From a virus: 24,303 bases of DNA. Positions within the stretch are counted from its first letter, which is position 1. Each line of letters opens with the position of its first letter. A program made the translations under genes and the position numbers. The stretch lies in the IMG/VR virus record IMGVR_UViG_3300030107_005311, positions 1-24,303 of that record; one strand, written 5' to 3'. Below are positions 6,003 through 24,303 of this stretch, piece by piece. Under the pieces are notes generated by a model. That model had not been told where the DNA came from. It was given only the letters and a program-made list of their open reading frames with translations, and did not search any database.

Positions 6003-6374
6003 TTAGTTATTTAGAACAAAATTTTGGTAGGGAATAGTCTTGAGTTCATCAATCTCTGATGGGTTCACATAATATAACTGCCCTACTACTTCCATGAAGG
6101 TATAGTTTCTCATTCTATTCCAATGAAAGTTGTATCCCTTGAATCCATTTGGCATGTACTCTGTAACAGCAACGAGAGGATTAGTATCGTATGTAATGTT
6201 AGGAGTCTTTGCTTTGTATATAAAAGTATAATACTTTCCTAAGTCAGGTACTGGTGTTACTCCATCTGATAATCTATCAATGATATCAACCATTAGATCA
6301 TCAGCATCCTCTGTACCTATGAGGTTCTCCACTATACCAGTGAGTCTATTTTCGTAGGGTTCATTTAATGCCAA
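6003..6374 (-). CDS. Conserved T4-like phage protein, 123 aa, unknown
   Basis: This 123-aa protein has an acidic helical N-terminus (residues 1-38). It is followed by an aromatic-rich domain with YYTFIYKAKTPNITYDTNPLV, GYNFHWNRMRNYTFMEVVG and LYYVNPSEIDEL. I recognise the pattern (YxYxPKTP, NPLV, NxHW, R-YT-E) as a small family common in T4-like marine phages, but it has no assigned function I can state. It overlaps the end of gp4 by 14 bases and lies ahead of gp48 and gp53. A structural or assembly role is plausible from its neighbours only. Confidence 0.7.
   Translation of the reverse strand: MALNEPYENRLTGIVENLIGTEDADDLMVDIIDRLSDGVTPVPDLGKYYTFIYKAKTPNITYDTNPLVAVTEYMPNGFKGYNFHWNRMRNYTFMEVVGQLYYVNPSEIDELKTIPYQNFVLNN
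6008..6014 (-). promoter_or_regulatory. Candidate late promoter motif ahead of gp48
   Basis: Read on the minus strand this is CTAAATA, close to the T4 late -10 element TATAAATA. It lies about 17 bases upstream of the gp48 GTG and within the last codons of the 123-aa gene. In an AT-rich genome such 7-mers occur by chance, so the call rests on position. Confidence 0.3.
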
Positions 6375-6798
6375 GTTCTTTTTCCGTAACTACTTTAAAG
6401 GTTAATTGTCTCATCTCACAGAATGACATAGCAGCTTTCCATTTTGCTTGGTTCTTTGCATACTCTGCCACTTCACGTATGAATGTTCTCTTTTGTTTCC
6501 TTCCTTTTGTGGGAGGGACACAATGTTTTAATGGTTTAACTTCAATTACATATCTTTTAACTTTACCATTACTTTCTTTAATCTTCATGTAGAAGTCTGG
6601 GAAGTAACGGTGGACTCTGTTGTCAAGAGGTGATACGTATGGTATAAAAAATTCTTCACTGCCCCATTCAAGTATATTTACATTACGATCACACCATTTC
6701 ATAAACTTTAGTTCCCAAAGGGATCTATAAATGATGTTTCTTGAGTCTCCTTGGTACTTATTTGAGTGAGTTGGAGTAAACTTACCTTTATAAGACAT
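6361..6798 (-). CDS. 4: gp4-like head completion protein
   Basis: The 145-aa product is the size of T4 gp4 (about 150 aa). It has the conserved NIIYRSLWELKFMKWCDRN, YVSPLDNRVHRYFPDFY and YVIEVKP segments. PD at residues 67-68 and E86-x-K88 form a PD-(D/E)XK-like nuclease core, a feature described for the gp4 head-completion family. In T4, gp4 acts after DNA packaging to finish the head before tail joining. It is the first gene of the minus-strand unit and diverges from gp54 across a 33-bp gap. Confidence 0.9.
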   Translation of the reverse strand: MSYKGKFTPTHSNKYQGDSRNIIYRSLWELKFMKWCDRNVNILEWGSEEFFIPYVSPLDNRVHRYFPDFYMKIKESNGKVKRYVIEVKPLKHCVPPTKGRKQKRTFIREVAEYAKNQAKWKAAMSFCEMRQLTFKVVTEKELGIK

Positions 6799-6831: not shown

Positions 6832-7869
6832 ATGGCTGGGAACATACCAGGTACAAAATATAGTACGTCAGATTTTCTGAGTAAGTTTGGAAACATTGCT
6901 CAGTCAAGTCAGTATAGAGTTCATTGGGCATGGCCTATTGAGGTTCAAAGATATCTGAGTGCTCAGAAGATACCTTATATTTTAATGAATGAGGGAAGTG
7001 TTTTATGTAAAGCAACTTCACTTCCTGGTTCTTCATTATCAACACATGATGTTGCTAATGATTTTTATGGTGTAACGCAAAAGAGTGCATATCGTCGTCA
7101 GTTTGATGGAAGTATTGATTTAACATTCTATATTGATAGTGATTATGGAATGCTTTATATGTTTGAAGGATGGTTAGAATATATTATGCAAATGAAATGT
7201 GATTCTGGAGATCCTAATAGTAAAGGTGTTACCTATACTGCTTCTTATCCTGATAGTTATAGGTGTTTATTATATCTTCATAAGTTTAATAAAGATCATC
7301 AAGGTGTACCTTCATCCAGAAGAGGAGTACATGGAGCAGCTGCTAATGTGTATGGTGAACCAGGAGATATAGTCTATACATTTATTGAAGCTTTCCCTCA
7401 GAATATATCATCAACATCTGTTTCATATGATCCCTCTCAGAATTTAGAATTTACTGTATCTTTTGCTTATACTAGGTACATTACTAGTAGAAGTGTTAGT
7501 AGGAATGGTGGTACTGCTGGTATACCTAATCCTAGAAGAAGACAATCAACTAAATCTAGTCCTATAGATAATCCTTCTAATCCTAATTTCAAAAATACTA
7601 GACAGGGTGTTCTTAATCATATAGAAACATGGCGTGATAATGAAGGTGAGGATTATGGTGTTCCTATAGTGGGTAGTCCTTATAATAGAGCATTAATTAA
7701 TCAACAAACAGGTGAAGGTGGACAACTTAGTCAAGCAGTTAAGGGACAGAACGTTAATGATAGTGGTGGCGGTGGTAACTCTACTATAAATGGTGTTAAC
7801 CCTTCAGGTAGAACAGGTGAAACATCAGGAGATGTTGCTTTATCAAGAGCAAGAGAAAAGTCCTTATAA
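6832..7869 (+). CDS. 54: gp54-like baseplate tail-tube initiator
   Basis: The 345-aa product resembles T4 gp54 (320 aa). A tube-like domain runs from about residue 20 to 225. It includes ATSLPGSSLSTHDV, FDGSIDLTFYIDSDYGMLYM and FIEAFPQNISSTSVSYDPSQ followed by FTVSFAYTRY. The last matches T4 FTGCHPISVSSPELSYDG and FDVTFAYRVM. The final 120 residues are polar, Gly/Asn/Ser-rich and probably flexible. gp54 sits on the baseplate hub and nucleates tail-tube polymerisation with gp48. It opens the plus-strand hub module and diverges from gp4. Confidence 0.85.
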   Translation: MAGNIPGTKYSTSDFLSKFGNIAQSSQYRVHWAWPIEVQRYLSAQKIPYILMNEGSVLCKATSLPGSSLSTHDVANDFYGVTQKSAYRRQFDGSIDLTFYIDSDYGMLYMFEGWLEYIMQMKCDSGDPNSKGVTYTASYPDSYRCLLYLHKFNKDHQGVPSSRRGVHGAAANVYGEPGDIVYTFIEAFPQNISSTSVSYDPSQNLEFTVSFAYTRYITSRSVSRNGGTAGIPNPRRRQSTKSSPIDNPSNPNFKNTRQGVLNHIETWRDNEGEDYGVPIVGSPYNRALINQQTGEGGQLSQAVKGQNVNDSGGGGNSTINGVNPSGRTGETSGDVALSRAREKSL

Positions 7870-7906: not shown

Positions 7907-8629
7907 ATGCCTTTACCAAAAATTGCCACACCAACGTATGAGTTGGAACTGCCGTCAAGTGGAGAAACAATTACATATAGACCTTTCTTAGTTAAAGAAG
8001 AGAAACTTTTAGTACTTGCTATGGAGAGTGAGGATACTAAGAGTATTACGAGAGCAATAAAAGAAGTTCTTAAGTCTTGTATTAAAACAAAAATTAAAGT
8101 AGATACTCTTCCTACATTTGATATTGAATATCTGTTCCTTAATATCAGAGGTAAGTCTGTTGGTGAAGAAGTTGAGGTTACTGTTACTTGTCCTGATGAT
8201 GGAGTAACAGAAGTAGATGTTAATATACCTATAGATAATATCCAAGTTCAAAAATCAAAGGAACATACTAATAATATTAAACTTGATGATACATTGTCTA
8301 TGACAATGAAGTACCCTTCTTTGGATCAATTTATTGAAACTAATTTTGATGTGAATGAATCTAAAGGTACTCAACTTGAACAGTCATTTGATTTGATTGG
8401 TTCTTGTATTGAAACTATCTACAGTGATGAAGAAGCATGGCCTGCTTCTGATTCTACTAAGAAAGAAATTGGTGAGTTTCTTGAGCAGTTAAGTTCAAGT
8501 CAATTCCAAGACATTGAGAAGTTCTTTGAGACTATGCCTAAGCTTTCTTATGATGTAGTTGTTACTAACCCTAAGACTAAGAAGAAGAATACTGTGGTAT
8601 TGGAGGGACTAGCAAGTTTTTTCGGGTAG
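7907..8629 (+). CDS. 26: gp26-like baseplate hub assembly protein (tail assembly chaperone)
   Basis: The 240-aa protein belongs to the T4 gp26 (T4_baseplate) family. It opens with MPLPKIATPTYELELPSSG and TYRPFLVKEEKLL, a start I know from many T4-like marine phages. The central part is a beta-rich module (VEVTVTCPDDG, VDVNIPI), and the C-terminal third is helical (IGEFLEQLSSSQFQDIEKFF). In T4 it is an assembly factor for the baseplate hub. Two codons before the final Gly codon lies a T TTT TTC heptamer. A -1 shift there would replace the last residue and stop with the gp51-like frame, giving a protein of about 302 aa. Its position just before the tape-measure-like genes fits a tape-measure chaperone. 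Confidence 0.86.
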   Translation: MPLPKIATPTYELELPSSGETITYRPFLVKEEKLLVLAMESEDTKSITRAIKEVLKSCIKTKIKVDTLPTFDIEYLFLNIRGKSVGEEVEVTVTCPDDGVTEVDVNIPIDNIQVQKSKEHTNNIKLDDTLSMTMKYPSLDQFIETNFDVNESKGTQLEQSFDLIGSCIETIYSDEEAWPASDSTKKEIGEFLEQLSSSQFQDIEKFFETMPKLSYDVVVTNPKTKKKNTVVLEGLASFFG

Positions 8630-8655
8630 CACTCTCCCATATGAATTTGGAGAGT
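8602..8655 (+). promoter_or_regulatory. Programmed -1 ribosomal frameshift signal, gp26 to gp51
   Basis: Four elements are correctly ordered and spaced. GGAGGG at 8602-8607 is a Shine-Dalgarno-like stimulator, 9 bases ahead of the slip site. The heptamer T TTT TTC at 8617-8623 is in the gp26 frame as TTT TTC. A 7-base spacer follows at 8624-8630. A perfect 7-bp stem ACTCTCC (8631-8637) with GGAGAGT (8649-8655) closes an 11-nt loop. After the slip, reading continues CGG GTA GCA CTC and joins the gp51-like frame with no stop until 8812. The gp51 ATG at 8641 lies in the loop. Confidence 0.85.
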
Positions 8656-8814
8656 TACTTCAGGATTAATTTTGCTTTGATGCAGTACCATAAATACAGC
8701 TTGACGGAGATAGAAAACATGATGCCTTGGGAACGAGACATCTATGTAGAACTCCTTAAACAACACCTCGAAGAAGAACGAGAAAAGCAAAAGCAACAAG
8801 CGAATGCCCAGTAA
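8641..8814 (+). CDS. 51: gp51-like short frame, probably expressed as a -1 frameshift extension of gp26
   Basis: The frame from ATG 8641 gives 57 aa. From the frameshift site (CGG 8623) it adds 63 residues to gp26. The product reads NLESYFRINFALMQYHKYSLTEIENMMP, then a charged helix (YVELLKQHLEEEREKQKQQ). The pattern of a Tyr/Trp-rich helix, 'Y-S-L-T-E-I-E-x-M-P' and a charged C-terminal helix resembles the T part of G/GT tail assembly chaperones. It also resembles the cyanophage genes labelled gp51. No Shine-Dalgarno sequence precedes ATG 8641, and that ATG lies in a hairpin loop, so independent initiation looks weak. It is far shorter than T4 gp51 (249 aa). The end overlaps the next gene by 11 bases. 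Confidence 0.72.
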   Translation: MNLESYFRINFALMQYHKYSLTEIENMMPWERDIYVELLKQHLEEEREKQKQQANAQ

Positions 8815-11029
8815 CAATAAAAATATAATAGGTGATTTAAGGGGGAAATTTGATCCTCATTATAAGTTAGCGTCTAATGTTGAAGGGATTGGGAAACAAT
8901 TAGATATTAAAATTGCTCAGTTGCATAAGACTTTAAGTAAGTCCTTTGTAACACAAAGGAAAACTTTGACGAGAGTTATTGGTCTTGAGAAAAGGGTTGG
9001 TGTTACTGAAGGTAAAGTTAATGTTATTGAAAGTATAGTTAGTGAGTTAGAAGCACAACAGGCAGCAGAGGAGCAAGCAAAGGAAGGTATAGATGAGATA
9101 TTAAATGATATACATGAAGCAGAAGCAGAAGCAGAAGTAGGTGGTACAAAACCAAAACCAAAGGCTAAGAAGAAACCAAAGGCTAAGAAGAAACCAGTAG
9201 CAAAGAAGAGGGGTAAAAAATCTTTTAGTAAAACTAAGGGTAAAGTTAAAGCTGAAAAGTTTTTTAATCTTGCTCAAGAGGTGAGAGCACAAGGAACTTT
9301 AGGTGGTGAGACATTAACTCCAGAGCAAAGGAAGGCAGGTTTTAAAGCAGCAAAGGATGGAGCAGATTCAGTAGGTTGGAAAGAATTTCTTGATTCAGTT
9401 GAGGAGACAAAGGGAGCAGCATCTAGTGAAGGAATAACTCCAAATACTAAGATGCTTCCTGGTAGTAGTGATATGGGACAGGGTGTGTTAGAGGGTATTG
9501 CTACTGATGTTAAAAGTATTCTAGGTGTTATTGATTCACGTACTGAAGCAGAAGAGGATGCTGCTGATGAGATAAAGCAAGAGAAAGAGAAAGATACTAG
9601 AAAAGATAAGGAGGAAAAGAAAGAGGCGAAAGCAAATAAGAAAGGGCCACTTCCTGGTTTTATTAAGAAGGCAACTGCACCAGTTGAAAATATATTAGGT
9701 GCTATTGTAAAAACATTTTCACTTCTTCTTGCTGGTTGGGGAATTACTAAGTTACTTGATTGGTTGGGTAATCCTAAGAATGCTAAAGCAGTAGAAGAAC
9801 TAAAAGATTTTATAACAGTTGCACTTCCTCCTATTCTTAAAGGTATTCTAGCACTAGTTGCATTAGATATAGGATTAAAAGTATTTGCTTTTGCTAAGAT
9901 GCTTGCGTCGGGTAGTCTTAAATTGTTGATGGGACTTAAGCAGATGGCAATTGGTGTTGCTAAATGGGCTATGGCTAATCCAAGATTAGCAATTGCTATG
10001 GGATTGGGTGCTGCAGCAATAGGATTATTTTTGTCTAGTGATGGTGGTAGTGGTGATGATGATACTGAACAGGGAACATCGGATAATAATATTGAATCTG
10101 AAGTTGAATTAAATGGTGGTGGATTAGTTCCAATTCAAAAATTTAAAGAAGGTGGATTTGTATCTGGTCCTAGCGGAGTTGATAAAGTTCCTGCAAAATT
10201 AACAGCAGGTGAATTTGTTATGAGTAAAGGAGCAGTTCAAAAGTATGGTGCTAGTACTCTTGCAAATATGAATGCTGCTGGAGGTGGAACTAACAGACCA
10301 ACAATGGGTAGATATAATGAAGGTGGTTTAGCTAAACAAGGTGTCGTAACTAACCCAGAAGTGAAAAAACAACAAGAAGCATATATGCTTAAGTTTGTTA
10401 ATGAAGAAAGAGCATTGCAGGGTATGGAACCTTTAAATAATCTAACTTATGCTCCAGGTGTGGAACTTACAAAACCAATGGGTAAAGAATATTTTGGTGG
10501 TGGAATAAAAGAAACATCAAATACTTTTACAGATATTGATAAGGGTATCAAGAGCAAATTTGAAACAAAAACAATGGGTGATCAATCCATAATGCGTGGA
10601 TCAATCGGTCAAACAACAGAAAAAGATAGGGACAAGTTTTTTGCAGAAAACCCACATGCAAAAGCATTATTAAATCTCAAGAATCAGTCTGAACTAGATG
10701 CTTTAGGTGGTGACATATCTGCAAGTGCCAAAATGAATGGTGGTGGTTTAGTTCCAATTCAAAACTTCCAAGGTGGTGGTTTAGTTCAGGGATTTCAAGG
10801 TGGTGGAGGGGTTAAAGCGGTTAAGACTGCTACTCAATTAATTAATAGTGTTCCAGGTAATAGTGGAGGAAGTAGTAGTGGAGCAACTATTCTTCCAGTA
10901 CCTTCTGGTTCTGGTAGTGGTAATGCAGGTAATAGTGGTAGTGTGGATAACTTAGTTATGTTTTCTCCTGTTGATGGTGATAATCTTTCATCATTAATAA
11001 TGAAATCAATGTATAGCATCTTAGATTAA
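8804..11029 (+). CDS. Tape-measure-like protein, 741 aa
   Basis: Domain order: a probable coiled coil at residues 25-105; a Lys/Pro/Ala repeat at about 117-145; a charged helical stretch at 245-280; and hydrophobic segments near 300-320, 337-370 and 395-412. A Gly-rich part contains GGFVSGPSGVDKVPAKLTAG and EFVMSKGAVQKYG (about 447-482), a signature common in phage tape measures. NGGGLVPIQ occurs twice (about 436 and 643). A last Gly/Ser-rich linker follows ILPVP and precedes a short helix. Tape measures set tail length inside the tube and help DNA entry. The position right after a frameshifted chaperone gene supports this. It is not a clear sequence match to T4 gp29. Confidence 0.72.
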   Translation: MPSNNKNIIGDLRGKFDPHYKLASNVEGIGKQLDIKIAQLHKTLSKSFVTQRKTLTRVIGLEKRVGVTEGKVNVIESIVSELEAQQAAEEQAKEGIDEILNDIHEAEAEAEVGGTKPKPKAKKKPKAKKKPVAKKRGKKSFSKTKGKVKAEKFFNLAQEVRAQGTLGGETLTPEQRKAGFKAAKDGADSVGWKEFLDSVEETKGAASSEGITPNTKMLPGSSDMGQGVLEGIATDVKSILGVIDSRTEAEEDAADEIKQEKEKDTRKDKEEKKEAKANKKGPLPGFIKKATAPVENILGAIVKTFSLLLAGWGITKLLDWLGNPKNAKAVEELKDFITVALPPILKGILALVALDIGLKVFAFAKMLASGSLKLLMGLKQMAIGVAKWAMANPRLAIAMGLGAAAIGLFLSSDGGSGDDDTEQGTSDNNIESEVELNGGGLVPIQKFKEGGFVSGPSGVDKVPAKLTAGEFVMSKGAVQKYGASTLANMNAAGGGTNRPTMGRYNEGGLAKQGVVTNPEVKKQQEAYMLKFVNEERALQGMEPLNNLTYAPGVELTKPMGKEYFGGGIKETSNTFTDIDKGIKSKFETKTMGDQSIMRGSIGQTTEKDRDKFFAENPHAKALLNLKNQSELDALGGDISASAKMNGGGLVPIQNFQGGGLVQGFQGGGGVKAVKTATQLINSVPGNSGGSSSGATILPVPSGSGSGNAGNSGSVDNLVMFSPVDGDNLSSLIMKSMYSILD

Positions 11030-21626: not shown

Positions 21627-21824
21627 ATGGATGATGATGCTTGGTTAACTAGGTGTGTGGTTAATACCACTGCTCGTACCTTCCGTCTGTATAGTAGTGA
21701 CGGATGTGAGAGAGAAGTTACCTGTGAAACAACACAACAGTTCATGGATGTCTTAAAACTGTGTAGAGAAATGTTAGACGAGGATACCCTCGCTTATAGT
21801 GACCCTTTAACTTCTAAATCATGA
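21627..21824 (+). CDS. Small hypothetical protein, 65 aa
   Basis: The product has a mixed N-terminal part (DDDAWLTRCVVNTTARTFRL then YSSDGCEREVTCETTQQF) that looks like a small beta sheet with three Cys. A helix follows (MDVLKLCREMLDED). It has no signal peptide or membrane segment. Its own promoter lies just upstream, and its stop overlaps the next start as ATGA, so it leads a two-gene unit with the exported Gly-zipper protein. I do not recognise a functional family; small proteins of this kind occur in cyanophages. Confidence 0.6.
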   Translation: MDDDAWLTRCVVNTTARTFRLYSSDGCEREVTCETTQQFMDVLKLCREMLDEDTLAYSDPLTSKS

Positions 21825-22252
21825 AAATTGCACTTGCTACCCTTATTGCTCTTGGTTCCTGTACTCCTGCAATAGCAGATTATCAGGCAGGGTATTCTAA
21901 TCAGAGAACATGCCATAAGACAGAATATAGAGAGGAATATATTCCTGGTACAGAGGATAATCCTGGATATGTAAAGTCATGGAAGGATACTGTTGAAGTC
22001 CCTTGCGAAGATGTTAATTCTGATGTTGGTTGGAGAAGACATCCATCTCCATCACCTTCAGACAGACCATACTATCGTAGACATGTAACTGTTTATGAGG
22101 ATACTAATGATTGCACAGATGGTAAGATTGCTGGTGGATTGTTAGGTGGTGGTGCTGCTGCTGCAATGTCACGAGGAGATGGAAGATGGTGGGCAATTCC
22201 ATTAGGTATAGTTGTTGGTAGTCACATTGGATGTGATGCTGCTGGAGGCTGA
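21821..22252 (+). CDS. Exported glycine-zipper protein, 143 aa
   Basis: The N-terminus (MKIALATLIALGSCTPAIAD) is a short export signal. Either signal peptidase I cuts after AIA, or Cys14 in LGSC is a lipoprotein site. Residues 25-90 are polar, with RTCHKTEYREEYIPG and a Pro/Ser-rich piece; Cys30, Cys65 and Cys98, approximately, could form disulfides. Residues 101-143 are Gly/Ala-rich (GKIAGGLLGGGAAAAMS, then WWAIPLGIVVGSHIGC), matching a glycine-zipper membrane hairpin as in bacterial 17-kDa-antigen-type outer-membrane proteins. A phage product of this kind probably acts in the host envelope, perhaps in lysis or superinfection exclusion; that is inference. It is coupled to the 65-aa gene by ATGA. 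Confidence 0.68.
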   Translation: MKIALATLIALGSCTPAIADYQAGYSNQRTCHKTEYREEYIPGTEDNPGYVKSWKDTVEVPCEDVNSDVGWRRHPSPSPSDRPYYRRHVTVYEDTNDCTDGKIAGGLLGGGAAAAMSRGDGRWWAIPLGIVVGSHIGCDAAGG

Positions 22253-22518: not shown

Positions 22519-23073
22519 ATGAAGAAAATCTTATTGATTACTTCATTATTATTTTTCGGTGCAAGTGGTGTAAAAGCCGATATTGTGCATCGAATTTCTG
22601 CCAGTACTCAGTTGACGGTGGATAGTGCTGCAAGTCAGGCAACTAGGCTAGGTTCAAGTTATAGTGTACAGGGTAGTAATATTACTGCTGGTACTATGGG
22701 TGGACTGACTGCTGCTACTGCAACTGCAGCTGCTGGACATACTGACGGAGTTTATACAGTTACCACAGCTGGCGATGCATTCAGCCTTACTGAGTCATTC
22801 CTTGGTGGCGATGCTGTAGATGCAGATGGTACTACTGTTACCACTGATATTCTTACATATGACAGTGATGGTGCTATCTCTAATACTTCGGCAACTAATA
22901 ACTACGGTACTATTGAAGCATTACCAGCATTTGGTAGTGTGACGACTACTGCTGGTGGAATGGCAGCTACCTTAGCTGGAACTATTGCAACAGATGGGGC
23001 AATAACTTTAACAGCTGGTGGGGCTGGTACTACAGCTACTGGTCAAGTGGTATCAGAGGTGACGGTGAGGTAG
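22519..23073 (+). CDS. Exported Ala/Gly/Thr-rich cyanophage protein, 184 aa
   Basis: A clear Sec signal peptide (MKKILLITSLLFFGASGVKA) is cut probably before DIVHRI. The mature part is beta-rich and low in charge. It has DIVHRISASTQLTVDSAASQ, SSYSVQGSNITAGTMGGLTA, FSLTESFLGGDAVDADG and a Gly/Thr-rich end (LTAGGAGTTATGQVVSEVTV). I have seen this pattern in other cyanophage proteins of unknown function. It contains no cysteine. More than half of the codons sampled end in T, as elsewhere in the genome. It is followed four bases later by a second exported protein. A virion-surface or envelope role is possible but unproven. Confidence 0.68.
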   Translation: MKKILLITSLLFFGASGVKADIVHRISASTQLTVDSAASQATRLGSSYSVQGSNITAGTMGGLTAATATAAAGHTDGVYTVTTAGDAFSLTESFLGGDAVDADGTTVTTDILTYDSDGAISNTSATNNYGTIEALPAFGSVTTTAGGMAATLAGTIATDGAITLTAGGAGTTATGQVVSEVTVR

Positions 23074-23077
23074 TAGT

Positions 23078-23548
23078 ATGAAGAAGTTTCTTCTACTATC
23101 TTTATTATTGATTCCAGGTGCTGCAAGAGCAGTGCCTGTGGTCCCCAATTTTCAACAGGGCTCTATGACGAGCCATACCGAAACTGAATCTACAGTAACG
23201 GAAACCATAAATTCCATTGATTATAGGACAGGATGGGAATACAGTGTGACTGGCCATGGGATCGAAAACGACGGACAACCGTTGAATCCCAACGTCAATT
23301 CCAGCACGGTGACAATAACACCAGCAGTAGGAACAGACGGAAACGGCGACGGAGCAACGGGCGTATTGACGAGTACGTTCGACTCTTTGGATATGGACAG
23401 CGCAGGAAGTTTCACCATATCAAATCCTGGAGGGGCATTTCAATTTACCCAAAGTTATTCTGGGCCTGGGATGACCAATCAGACAATAATACAAAGAGTG
23501 ACCGCCATAAAAAGCGTCACAGACGTAACAAGTACGTTTACGCAGTAG
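23078..23548 (+). CDS. Exported cyanophage protein, 156 aa, second half overlapping another frame
   Basis: The N-terminal signal peptide (MKKFLLLSLLLIPGAARA) is followed by VPVVPNFQQGSMTSHTETES. A Thr/Ser-rich domain then ends with NPGGAFQFTQSYSGPGMTNQ and a TAIKSVTDVTSTFTQ tail. This family occurs in cyanophages and has no known function. From about 23233 the codon use changes: only about 20 of 105 codons end in T, against about 56 percent in the upstream 184-aa gene. Over the same stretch the -1 frame is open and leads into the next gene. The protein itself looks intact up to its TAG stop. Both frames may be translated. Confidence 0.7.
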   Translation: MKKFLLLSLLLIPGAARAVPVVPNFQQGSMTSHTETESTVTETINSIDYRTGWEYSVTGHGIENDGQPLNPNVNSSTVTITPAVGTDGNGDGATGVLTSTFDSLDMDSAGSFTISNPGGAFQFTQSYSGPGMTNQTIIQRVTAIKSVTDVTSTFTQ

Positions 23549-24303
23549 GTGCTTCACTACTAAGTTTAGTCAATCCTACGGTAATGTTAGCAGAGAATGT
23601 TGGTGGAATATCAGCAACTGCTAATCCAATAGCCAATAGTTCGGGCTCAGTCACGAACCAAGCTATTCAAGTTTTACAAGGTCCATACGTCACTAATACT
23701 TACGGTAATCAAATATCTTGTCAAGGTGCGACTTTTAATGCAACACCATATATTCAGTATAGTAACTCATGGAAAGATCCTTTTGAAAGGACTTATCTAG
23801 AACCACAGTATAATAATACAGATTTTACAGGAAGAACAACTACTCAAATTATTACAGTAAAAAATTACCCTTGGTATGATGGATGGAAGAGAGGTCCGAA
23901 TAATGCTGATGGTACGATGGGTGACTTTGTTTTAGATGATGATGGAAATAAGATACCTATTGAAGAGAATTGGTATGATAATAGGGTTAAACAAAATGCT
24001 GATGGAAGTATAATTCTGGATGATGATGGAAATCCAATTCGTTATTATGCTGATGGTGCGGATATGCCCTATGAAATAGAAGTTGATGGCCCTGATGGGA
24101 TACCAGATAATCCTGGTGAGAAGATATGGGATAAACCAATGAGGACTGATATGACTGCTAATAATAATTTTAATATTGGATTATCTGCTACTCTATCAAT
24201 ACCACTTGATAAGAAATTACAGAAATTGTGTAAAGAGGCTGCAACTACTCAAATAGAGCAACAAAAACAATTGACTGCTAATAAGCGGTTAGATTTTGAA
24301 ATA
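23233..24303 (+). CDS. Partial cyanophage structural-type protein with internal signal-like segment; start uncertain
   Basis: This frame is open from 23227 to the window end. The main part has SSGSVTNQAIQVLQGPYVTN, NQISCQGATFNATPYIQYSN and acidic Gly/Asp repeats (DDDGNKIP, DDDGNPIR, GPDGIPDNPGE). It ends in a helix (TTQIEQQKQLTANKRLDFEI); I know this family from cyanophages. A signal-like stretch precedes it: basic RHKKRHRRNKY, then a hydrophobic run up to VMLA. The only ATG, GTG or TTG in this frame before that signal is ATG 23233, about 93 codons ahead of it. The next is ATG 23584, inside the signal. The coordinates given assume ATG 23233; a later non-standard start or a frameshift is possible. 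Confidence 0.6.
   Translation, partial: MGIQCDWPWDRKRRTTVESQRQFQHGDNNTSSRNRRKRRRSNGRIDEYVRLFGYGQRRKFHHIKSWRGISIYPKLFWAWDDQSDNNTKSDRHKKRHRRNKYVYAVGASLLSLVNPTVMLAENVGGISATANPIANSSGSVTNQAIQVLQGPYVTNTYGNQISCQGATFNATPYIQYSNSWKDPFERTYLEPQYNNTDFTGRTTTQIITVKNYPWYDGWKRGPNNADGTMGDFVLDDDGNKIPIEENWYDNRVKQNADGSIILDDDGNPIRYYADGADMPYEIEVDGPDGIPDNPGEKIWDKPMRTDMTANNNFNIGLSATLSIPLDKKLQKLCKEAATTQIEQQKQLTANKRLDFEI

Follow-up and report, generated by a model that had tools for sequence, protein, structure and literature searches.

A probable programmed -1 frameshift joining gp26 to gp51 in a T4-type tail gene block and its relatives

Gene organization at the gp26-gp51 junction

The window studied here, i.e., the whole stretch of DNA that was analyzed, is a 24.3-kb virus record carrying T4-type tail genes, which we read as that of a marine T4-like cyanophage. 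Genes for gp53, a tail tube cap and a head closure protein are on the minus strand, and the plus strand encodes, in order, a tail-tube-like protein (6832-7869), gp26 (7907-8629), a gp51-like frame and two large proteins. The features of the plus-strand region, each with the evidence for its assignment, are as follows.

6832..7869, plus strand: tail-tube-like protein, upstream of gp26 (phrog_45, 1.2e-34)
7907..8629, plus strand: gp26 ORF, 240 aa, probable short chaperone form (TAC-N, G-like) (PF12322, 3.5e-75; phrog_150, 1.1e-82; model pLDDT 86)
8602..8607, plus strand: putative Shine-Dalgarno (SD)-like stimulator GGAGGG, 9 nt before the heptamer (sequence; anti-SD pairing test)
8617..8623, plus strand: slippery heptamer T TTT TTC (81/81 and 77/78 loci; T TTT TTN in 24/26 named phages)
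8623..8814, plus strand: -1 frame, 63 codons plus TAA, probable C-terminal extension (TAC-C, T-like, "gp51") (phrog_634, 2.8e-30; phrog_150, 2.9e-06)
8627..8629, plus strand: zero-frame stop of gp26, TAG (sequence)
8631..8637, plus strand: downstream hairpin, 5' arm (sequence; fold compared with synonymous versions)
8649..8655, plus strand: downstream hairpin, 3' arm (sequence; fold compared with synonymous versions)
8804..11029, plus strand: 741-aa protein overlapping the end of the -1 frame, candidate near the tape-measure slot (phrog_35029, 1.3e-32, function unknown)

Reading of the sequence placed the TTT (8618) and TTC (8621) codons of the heptamer in the gp26 register, followed in that frame by a GGG codon and the TAG stop. 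The GGAGGG is separated from the heptamer by 9 nt, and the arms ACTCTCC and GGAGAGT, which begin 7 nt past the heptamer, form seven perfect pairs around an 11-nt loop. The -1 frame is open from 8623 to 8811 (63 aa) and ends at TAA 8812-8814, with a product that includes ...SFFRVALSHMNLES... The initial annotation of this DNA, which had claimed the GGAGGG, the 9-nt gap and the in-register heptamer, proved exact to the base on re-reading. The 7-bp hairpin that it had described does pair perfectly, and the 63 open codons that it had assigned to the -1 frame extend to the TAA. The hairpin loop contains the first ATG of the gp51 frame (8641-8643), and no SD sequence was seen by eye just upstream of this ATG.

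The 741-aa protein encoded past gp51 had a weak match to a tape-measure profile (0.0012) and is not clearly a tape measure by profile. In phages HTVC008M and Cr30, the tape measure is annotated one gene past gp51.

Predicted products of the gp26 gene and the -1 frame

Profile searches identified gp26 of the window as a member of the T4 gp26/gp51 family, its match to PF12322 scoring 252.9 bits against a Pfam gathering score of 24.5. The -1 frame had no match in Pfam; it matched phrog_634 (gp51) at 2.8e-30 and, in addition, positions 237-281 of the 282 of phrog_150 (gp26 family) at 2.9e-06. Since this second match is to the C-terminal end of phrog_150, some members of the gp26 family hold the gp51 piece in one chain, T4 gp51 being one of them.

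The structure predicted for gp26 (pLDDT 86) had as its best solved match, over residues 1-85, the HK97 tail assembly chaperone (TAC) 2ob9 (Z 7.8, rmsd 4.3, 84 residues aligned, 10% identity). Next to it were 3fgx (Z 7.8) and YqbN (3klu, Z 7.3), the latter an XkdN-like tail assembly chaperone, followed by 5ir0 (Z 5.5), with the remaining rows at 2.4 or below. A Foldseek search of the same model was weak when taken alone (E 0.22). For this reason, and because a Z below 8 may reflect a common arrangement, we counted the TAC fold as moderate support. The likeness to GpG-like chaperones that the initial annotation had proposed to look for with HHpred, and that we sought through the predicted structure, was moderately supported: the best solved match is the HK97 TAC, while the Z of 7.8 and the Foldseek E of 0.22 leave the assignment at moderate strength. 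Sequence searches for solved relatives of gp26 and of T4 gp51 returned nothing credible, and a search of NCBIfam returned only unrelated rows below threshold. No TAC was listed among the fold matches of a model of T4-type gp51, which shows neither a relation nor a difference.

The likeness to 2ob9 is confined to residues 1-85 of gp26, which has approximately 150 further residues. The lambda G protein is smaller than the 240 aa of gp26, whose first ~90 residues carry the predicted TAC-like fold, and the slip heptamer of lambda, G GGA AAG, is unlike T TTT TTC. The reading that we favor is gp26 as TAC-N and the -1 product as TAC-NC, corresponding to lambda G and GT, respectively, with moderate support from the predicted TAC-like fold of gp26.

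Conservation of the slip site and the -1 frame

A gp26 protein search of IMG/VR provided a first set of junctions, the best 80 of at least 598 loci, which together with the window made 81 loci (79 distinct); none of the peptide patterns used in that search spans the junction. A second set was obtained with the more distant P-SSM4 gp26 and comprised 78 loci, i.e., 80 less two (L074 and L077) already present in the first set. In addition, 26 named phages were hand-picked for their spread among hundreds of matching records (686 for gp26).

The heptamer T TTT TTC was exactly nine bases before the stop in all 81 loci of the first set, window included. Gp51 was in the -1 frame in 79/79 alignable loci of this set, two loci (L057 and L074) having been left out of the count because their sequences end ~40 bases past the gp26 match. 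The second set contained the heptamer in 77 of its 78 loci, 76 times at -9 and once at -6, and one locus (L190) was without it. The initial annotation had suggested that related junctions be aligned for the heptamer and its spacing, and both are conserved in these two sets.

Among the 26 named phages, T TTT TTN was in register in 24, the exceptions being Marshall and Vibrio D533, and the -1 frame was open in 25, the exception being S-SCSM1; in the most distant of these phages the gp51 likeness of the -1 frame was judged by eye. The hosts of the named phages with T TTT TTN include Prochlorococcus, Synechococcus, Pelagibacter, Methylophilales, Caulobacter, Vibrio, Aeromonas, Pseudomonas, Stenotrophomonas, Delftia, Rhizobium and Agrobacterium. 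Two of the phages with this site are Atu_ph07 (490 kb) and Pseudomonas phage 30-2 (287 kb).

Phe-Phe pairs elsewhere in the gp26 genes of the first set provided an internal control. These pairs were encoded by TTC TTT (55), TTT TTT (21), TTC TTC (1) and TTT TTC (1). TTT TTC was therefore used in 1/78 of the other Phe-Phe pairs versus 79/79 distinct sequences at the slip site of the same genes, which indicates that the slip site is not there by chance; a chance or low-complexity T run was ruled out by this control. The codon before TTT TTC ended in T in 79/79 distinct sequences.

Purifying selection acts on the -1 codons ahead of the gp51 ATG: for the four that follow the gp26 stop and precede the ATG position, pN/pS was 0.39, compared to 1.63 and 2.43 in the other two frames.

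Sequences flanking the heptamer

The fold after the heptamer was more stable than that of synonymous versions of the same -1 peptide, with a mean z of -2.37 in the first set (n = 77) and -2.93 in the second (n = 71), and was individually significant (p < 0.05) in 49/77 and 53/71 loci, respectively. Controls located further along the -1 frame had mean z values of -0.33 (n = 77) and -0.11 (n = 76). Two of the 79 first-set sequences were dropped from this test as the contig ended, and 71 of 72 were used from the second set. The conservation of the stem, with compensatory changes, that the initial annotation had anticipated held for the presence of structure after the heptamer and for pair changes on both sides of the helix. 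It did not hold for the exact stem, whose position and length vary between relatives: the inner 5-bp helix, in which the two-sided changes were seen, is complete in 41/79 sequences, and among the folds printed some loci, including the window, use a different outer stem.

The pairing of the upstream site with the anti-SD, again relative to synonymous versions, had a mean z of -1.05 (n = 79) and -1.41 (n = 72), compared to 0.18 (n = 108) and 0.08 (n = 96) for control windows. The SD-like motif was absent in 7/72 loci of the second set. In both sets of loci, the average strength of the SD-like site and of the hairpin exceeds what coding requires.

T4 gp26 and gp51 as separate genes

In T4 the genes 26 and 51 are on opposite strands, as they are in Aeromonas phage 25. 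T4 gp26 (208 aa) and gp51 (249 aa) both matched the whole length of PF12322 (8.8e-64 and 3.9e-52), with residues 1-201 of gp51 forming its match, and BLASTP aligned the two proteins with each other (2e-06, single comparison). The last 100 residues of T4 gp51 matched phrog_634 (1.2e-23), a match within which its C-terminal addition falls. In the alignment, the ~45 extra residues of T4 gp51 come after the position of the terminal -FF of the other chains, and in a model of T4-type gp51 (pLDDT 88.8) the elements are similarly ordered, with three helices added at the end. Direct BLASTP of T4 gp51 with gp26 of the window was not significant (0.12), and these two are linked by profile. T4 gene 26 is without the heptamer and has GAG TTC TTT GAG near its end.

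As judged from their sequences, T4 gp26 and gp51 are paralogs, gp51 consisting of a gp26-like domain extended by the segment that the window encodes in its -1 frame. This resolved a doubt voiced in the initial annotation, that gp26 and gp51 of T4 are described as two separate proteins, since T4 gp51 is a gp26 paralog with an extra C-terminal piece. In a tree of 46 sequences, T4-type gp26 and gp51 grouped together with support of 91/80 (below the star at 95 and 80), and the frameshift rows fell outside this group. The matches to PF12322 (both proteins) and phrog_634 (gp51 only), the grouping in the tree and the heptamer-less gene 26 thus indicate that the T4 group encodes the G-like and GT-like forms separately, in T4 itself from opposite strands, unlike the single frameshifted gene found here.

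The same 46-sequence tree is unrooted, and the frameshift rows do not form one group in it (2 changes). Canonical T TTT TTN slippage is widespread and probably the ancestral state, and because the root of the tree is unknown, its ancestry is argued from its spread and not from rooting.

RB43 (L139:3001-4294) has a gp51-like gene followed by a short gp26-like ORF on the same strand, unlike the divergent arrangement of T4. The latter ORF (185 aa), which was read by eye as gp26, grouped with the gp51 rows on a long branch, and its assignment is therefore unsure.

Exceptions to the canonical arrangement

Two records retain gp26 and gp51 next to each other in other relative frames. In S-SCSM1 (L089:1980-2040; one gp26 match) the heptamer is intact and gp51 is in the +1 frame, owing to an apparent insertion of ~11 nt past the gp26 stop (by eye). 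In the second-set locus without a heptamer (L190:2190-2390; a 236-kb record with one gp26 match), gp26 reads into gp51 in the zero frame. An assembly error is possible in both records; for L190, the fusion may otherwise mean that the frameshift was naturally lost.

The relatives of Ackermannvirus Marshall had GAR ATT TTC ATY TAA at the end of gp26 in 18/18 loci (10 distinct junctions). None of these 18 loci has an X XXY YYZ site there, and the -1 extension is still open. Only tRNA-Phe would re-pair well in the -1 frame at such a site, so that a single-tRNA slip would make the long form. These gp26 ends are near locus position 1790-1870 in L223-L240 and near 3230-3300 in L102, and the gp51-like -1 extension, although present in Marshall, is unannotated there. 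In Vibrio D533 (L136, near 2660-2730), gp26 ends in CTT TTC AAG TAA with no canonical heptamer and with the -1 frame open.

We speculate, with more doubt than confidence, that the gp26/gp51 family has interchangeable routes to a short and a long form, i.e., T TTT TTN slippage, duplication in the T4 group and the non-canonical site of the Marshall type. The in-frame fusion of L190 and the +1 arrangement of S-SCSM1 may be further states of the family.

Proposed expression of gp26 and gp26-51, and alternative explanations

A programmed -1 ribosomal frameshift very probably gives rise to two chaperone forms at this locus, gp26 (TAC-N) and gp26-51 (TAC-NC). The central proposal of the initial annotation, namely that gp26 and gp51 are linked as a frameshifted chaperone pair like lambda G/GT, is supported by the conservation of the site, the structure after the heptamer and the moderate TAC-like fold. 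Most ribosomes would end at the gp26 stop and produce TAC-N. In a minority, the upstream GGAGGG and the downstream hairpin would promote a pause at the heptamer, with TTT occupying the P site and TTC the A site; the two tRNA-Phe would then slip one base back onto TTT TTT, and the slipped ribosomes would read 63 more codons to make TAC-NC. By analogy with lambda gpG and gpGT, the tape measure protein may be coated by many copies of gp26 and few of gp26-51, whose extension would recruit the tail tube protein. The T4 group would obtain the equivalent two products from the paralogous genes 26 and 51. We infer the slippage itself, its efficiency and the binding partners of the products.

Gp51 could instead be translated on its own, as a small protein starting at the ATG at 8641 through termination-reinitiation 11 nt past the gp26 stop, with the T run incidental. 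This would agree with the records that annotate gp51 as its own gene and with the presence of an ATG at the annotated position in 72/79 sequences, and of some ATG within -1 codons 3-12 in 77/79. The ATG is missing at that position in the other 7/79, however, 2/79 are without any ATG in codons 3-12, and 19/77 loci of the second set have none in -1 codons 3-14. In the window, moreover, the ATG has no SD by eye and sits in the hairpin loop. Further points against a separate gp51 are the conserved heptamer, the presence of both parts in one chain in T4 gp51, and the purifying selection on the -1 codons upstream of the ATG (pN/pS 0.39), which it cannot explain. We consider this explanation highly improbable. 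An independent start as the sole route to gp51 was ruled out by that selection and by the loci without an ATG, while some separate gp51 is possible in many relatives, given that only 2/79 are without an ATG in -1 codons 3-12. Transcriptional slippage, in which the T6 run gains a base and so leads into the -1 frame, seemed scarcely credible to us. The run is all T, and it is a T7 in some relatives (e.g., HTVC008M and Melnitz), but six T are short for polymerase slippage, which would moreover have no need of the register, the SD-like site or the hairpin, all of them conserved.

A different possibility accepts the frameshift and takes gp26 and gp26-51 as subunits of the baseplate hub in place of tape-measure chaperones. 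Many records name gp26 "baseplate hub subunit", and Leiman et al. 2010 (PMC3004832) cite genetics in favor of gp26 being part of the T4 hub. They also table gp26 and gp51 as hub assembly chaperones, with gp51 absent from the particle. The predicted fold of gp26, which is TAC-like with moderate support, its location between the tube-like gene and the large downstream genes, and the published TAC assignment, as conveyed by citing papers, all argue against hub subunits, and we regard this possibility as unlikely.

The frameshifted chaperone pair has consequences for annotation, as some records present gp51 as a "baseplate hub assembly catalyst" in its own right and others have no annotation for the -1 frame. 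A study by Vladimirov, Gautam and Davidson (Virology 2022;566:9-15) reportedly found frameshifting to be conserved in several T4-like groups, with T4 using the separate genes 26 and 51. The TAC-N and TAC-NC of T4-like phages in that study (Vladimirov et al. 2022) are reportedly the same genes as those described here. Of other publications, in the passages on this subject, a 2016 review has the G-T frameshift as conserved "except T4" (PMC5009743), some T4-like phages are said to have a short and a longer gene in place of frameshifting (PMC10885494), and T4-like phages are cited as having polyT slip signals in their TAC-N genes (PMC12846349). The phrase "except T4" is explained by the sequence evidence given here: T4 and its near relatives encode the two forms in genes 26 and 51, which are paralogs, and the frameshift is retained in cyanophages and in many other T4-like lineages. 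As far as can be told from the title of the 2022 study and from passages of papers citing it, T4-like frameshifted TAC genes had already been described in 2022, and our main point was therefore already known. What is added here is chiefly support for two stimulators, together with a set of exceptions. The conserved putative stimulators and the putative non-canonical site of the Marshall type are possibly new; the Marshall-type variant was not found in the passages on T4-like TAC genes of the other papers cited here.

Other open reading frames of the window

The head closure protein (6361-6798, minus strand; phrog_218) also scored on a TnsA-like endonuclease domain (3.9e-22). At the end of the tail gene block are three consecutive ORFs (21821-22252, 22519-23073 and 23078-23548) whose N-termini, by eye, resemble secretion signals (MKIALATLIALGS, MKKILLITSLLFFGASG and MKKFLLLSLLLIPGAA, respectively), and the second and third of these are seemingly similar. 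A long open frame (23233-24303) overlaps ORF 23078-23548 in another frame and runs off the window, possibly reflecting a frame disruption.
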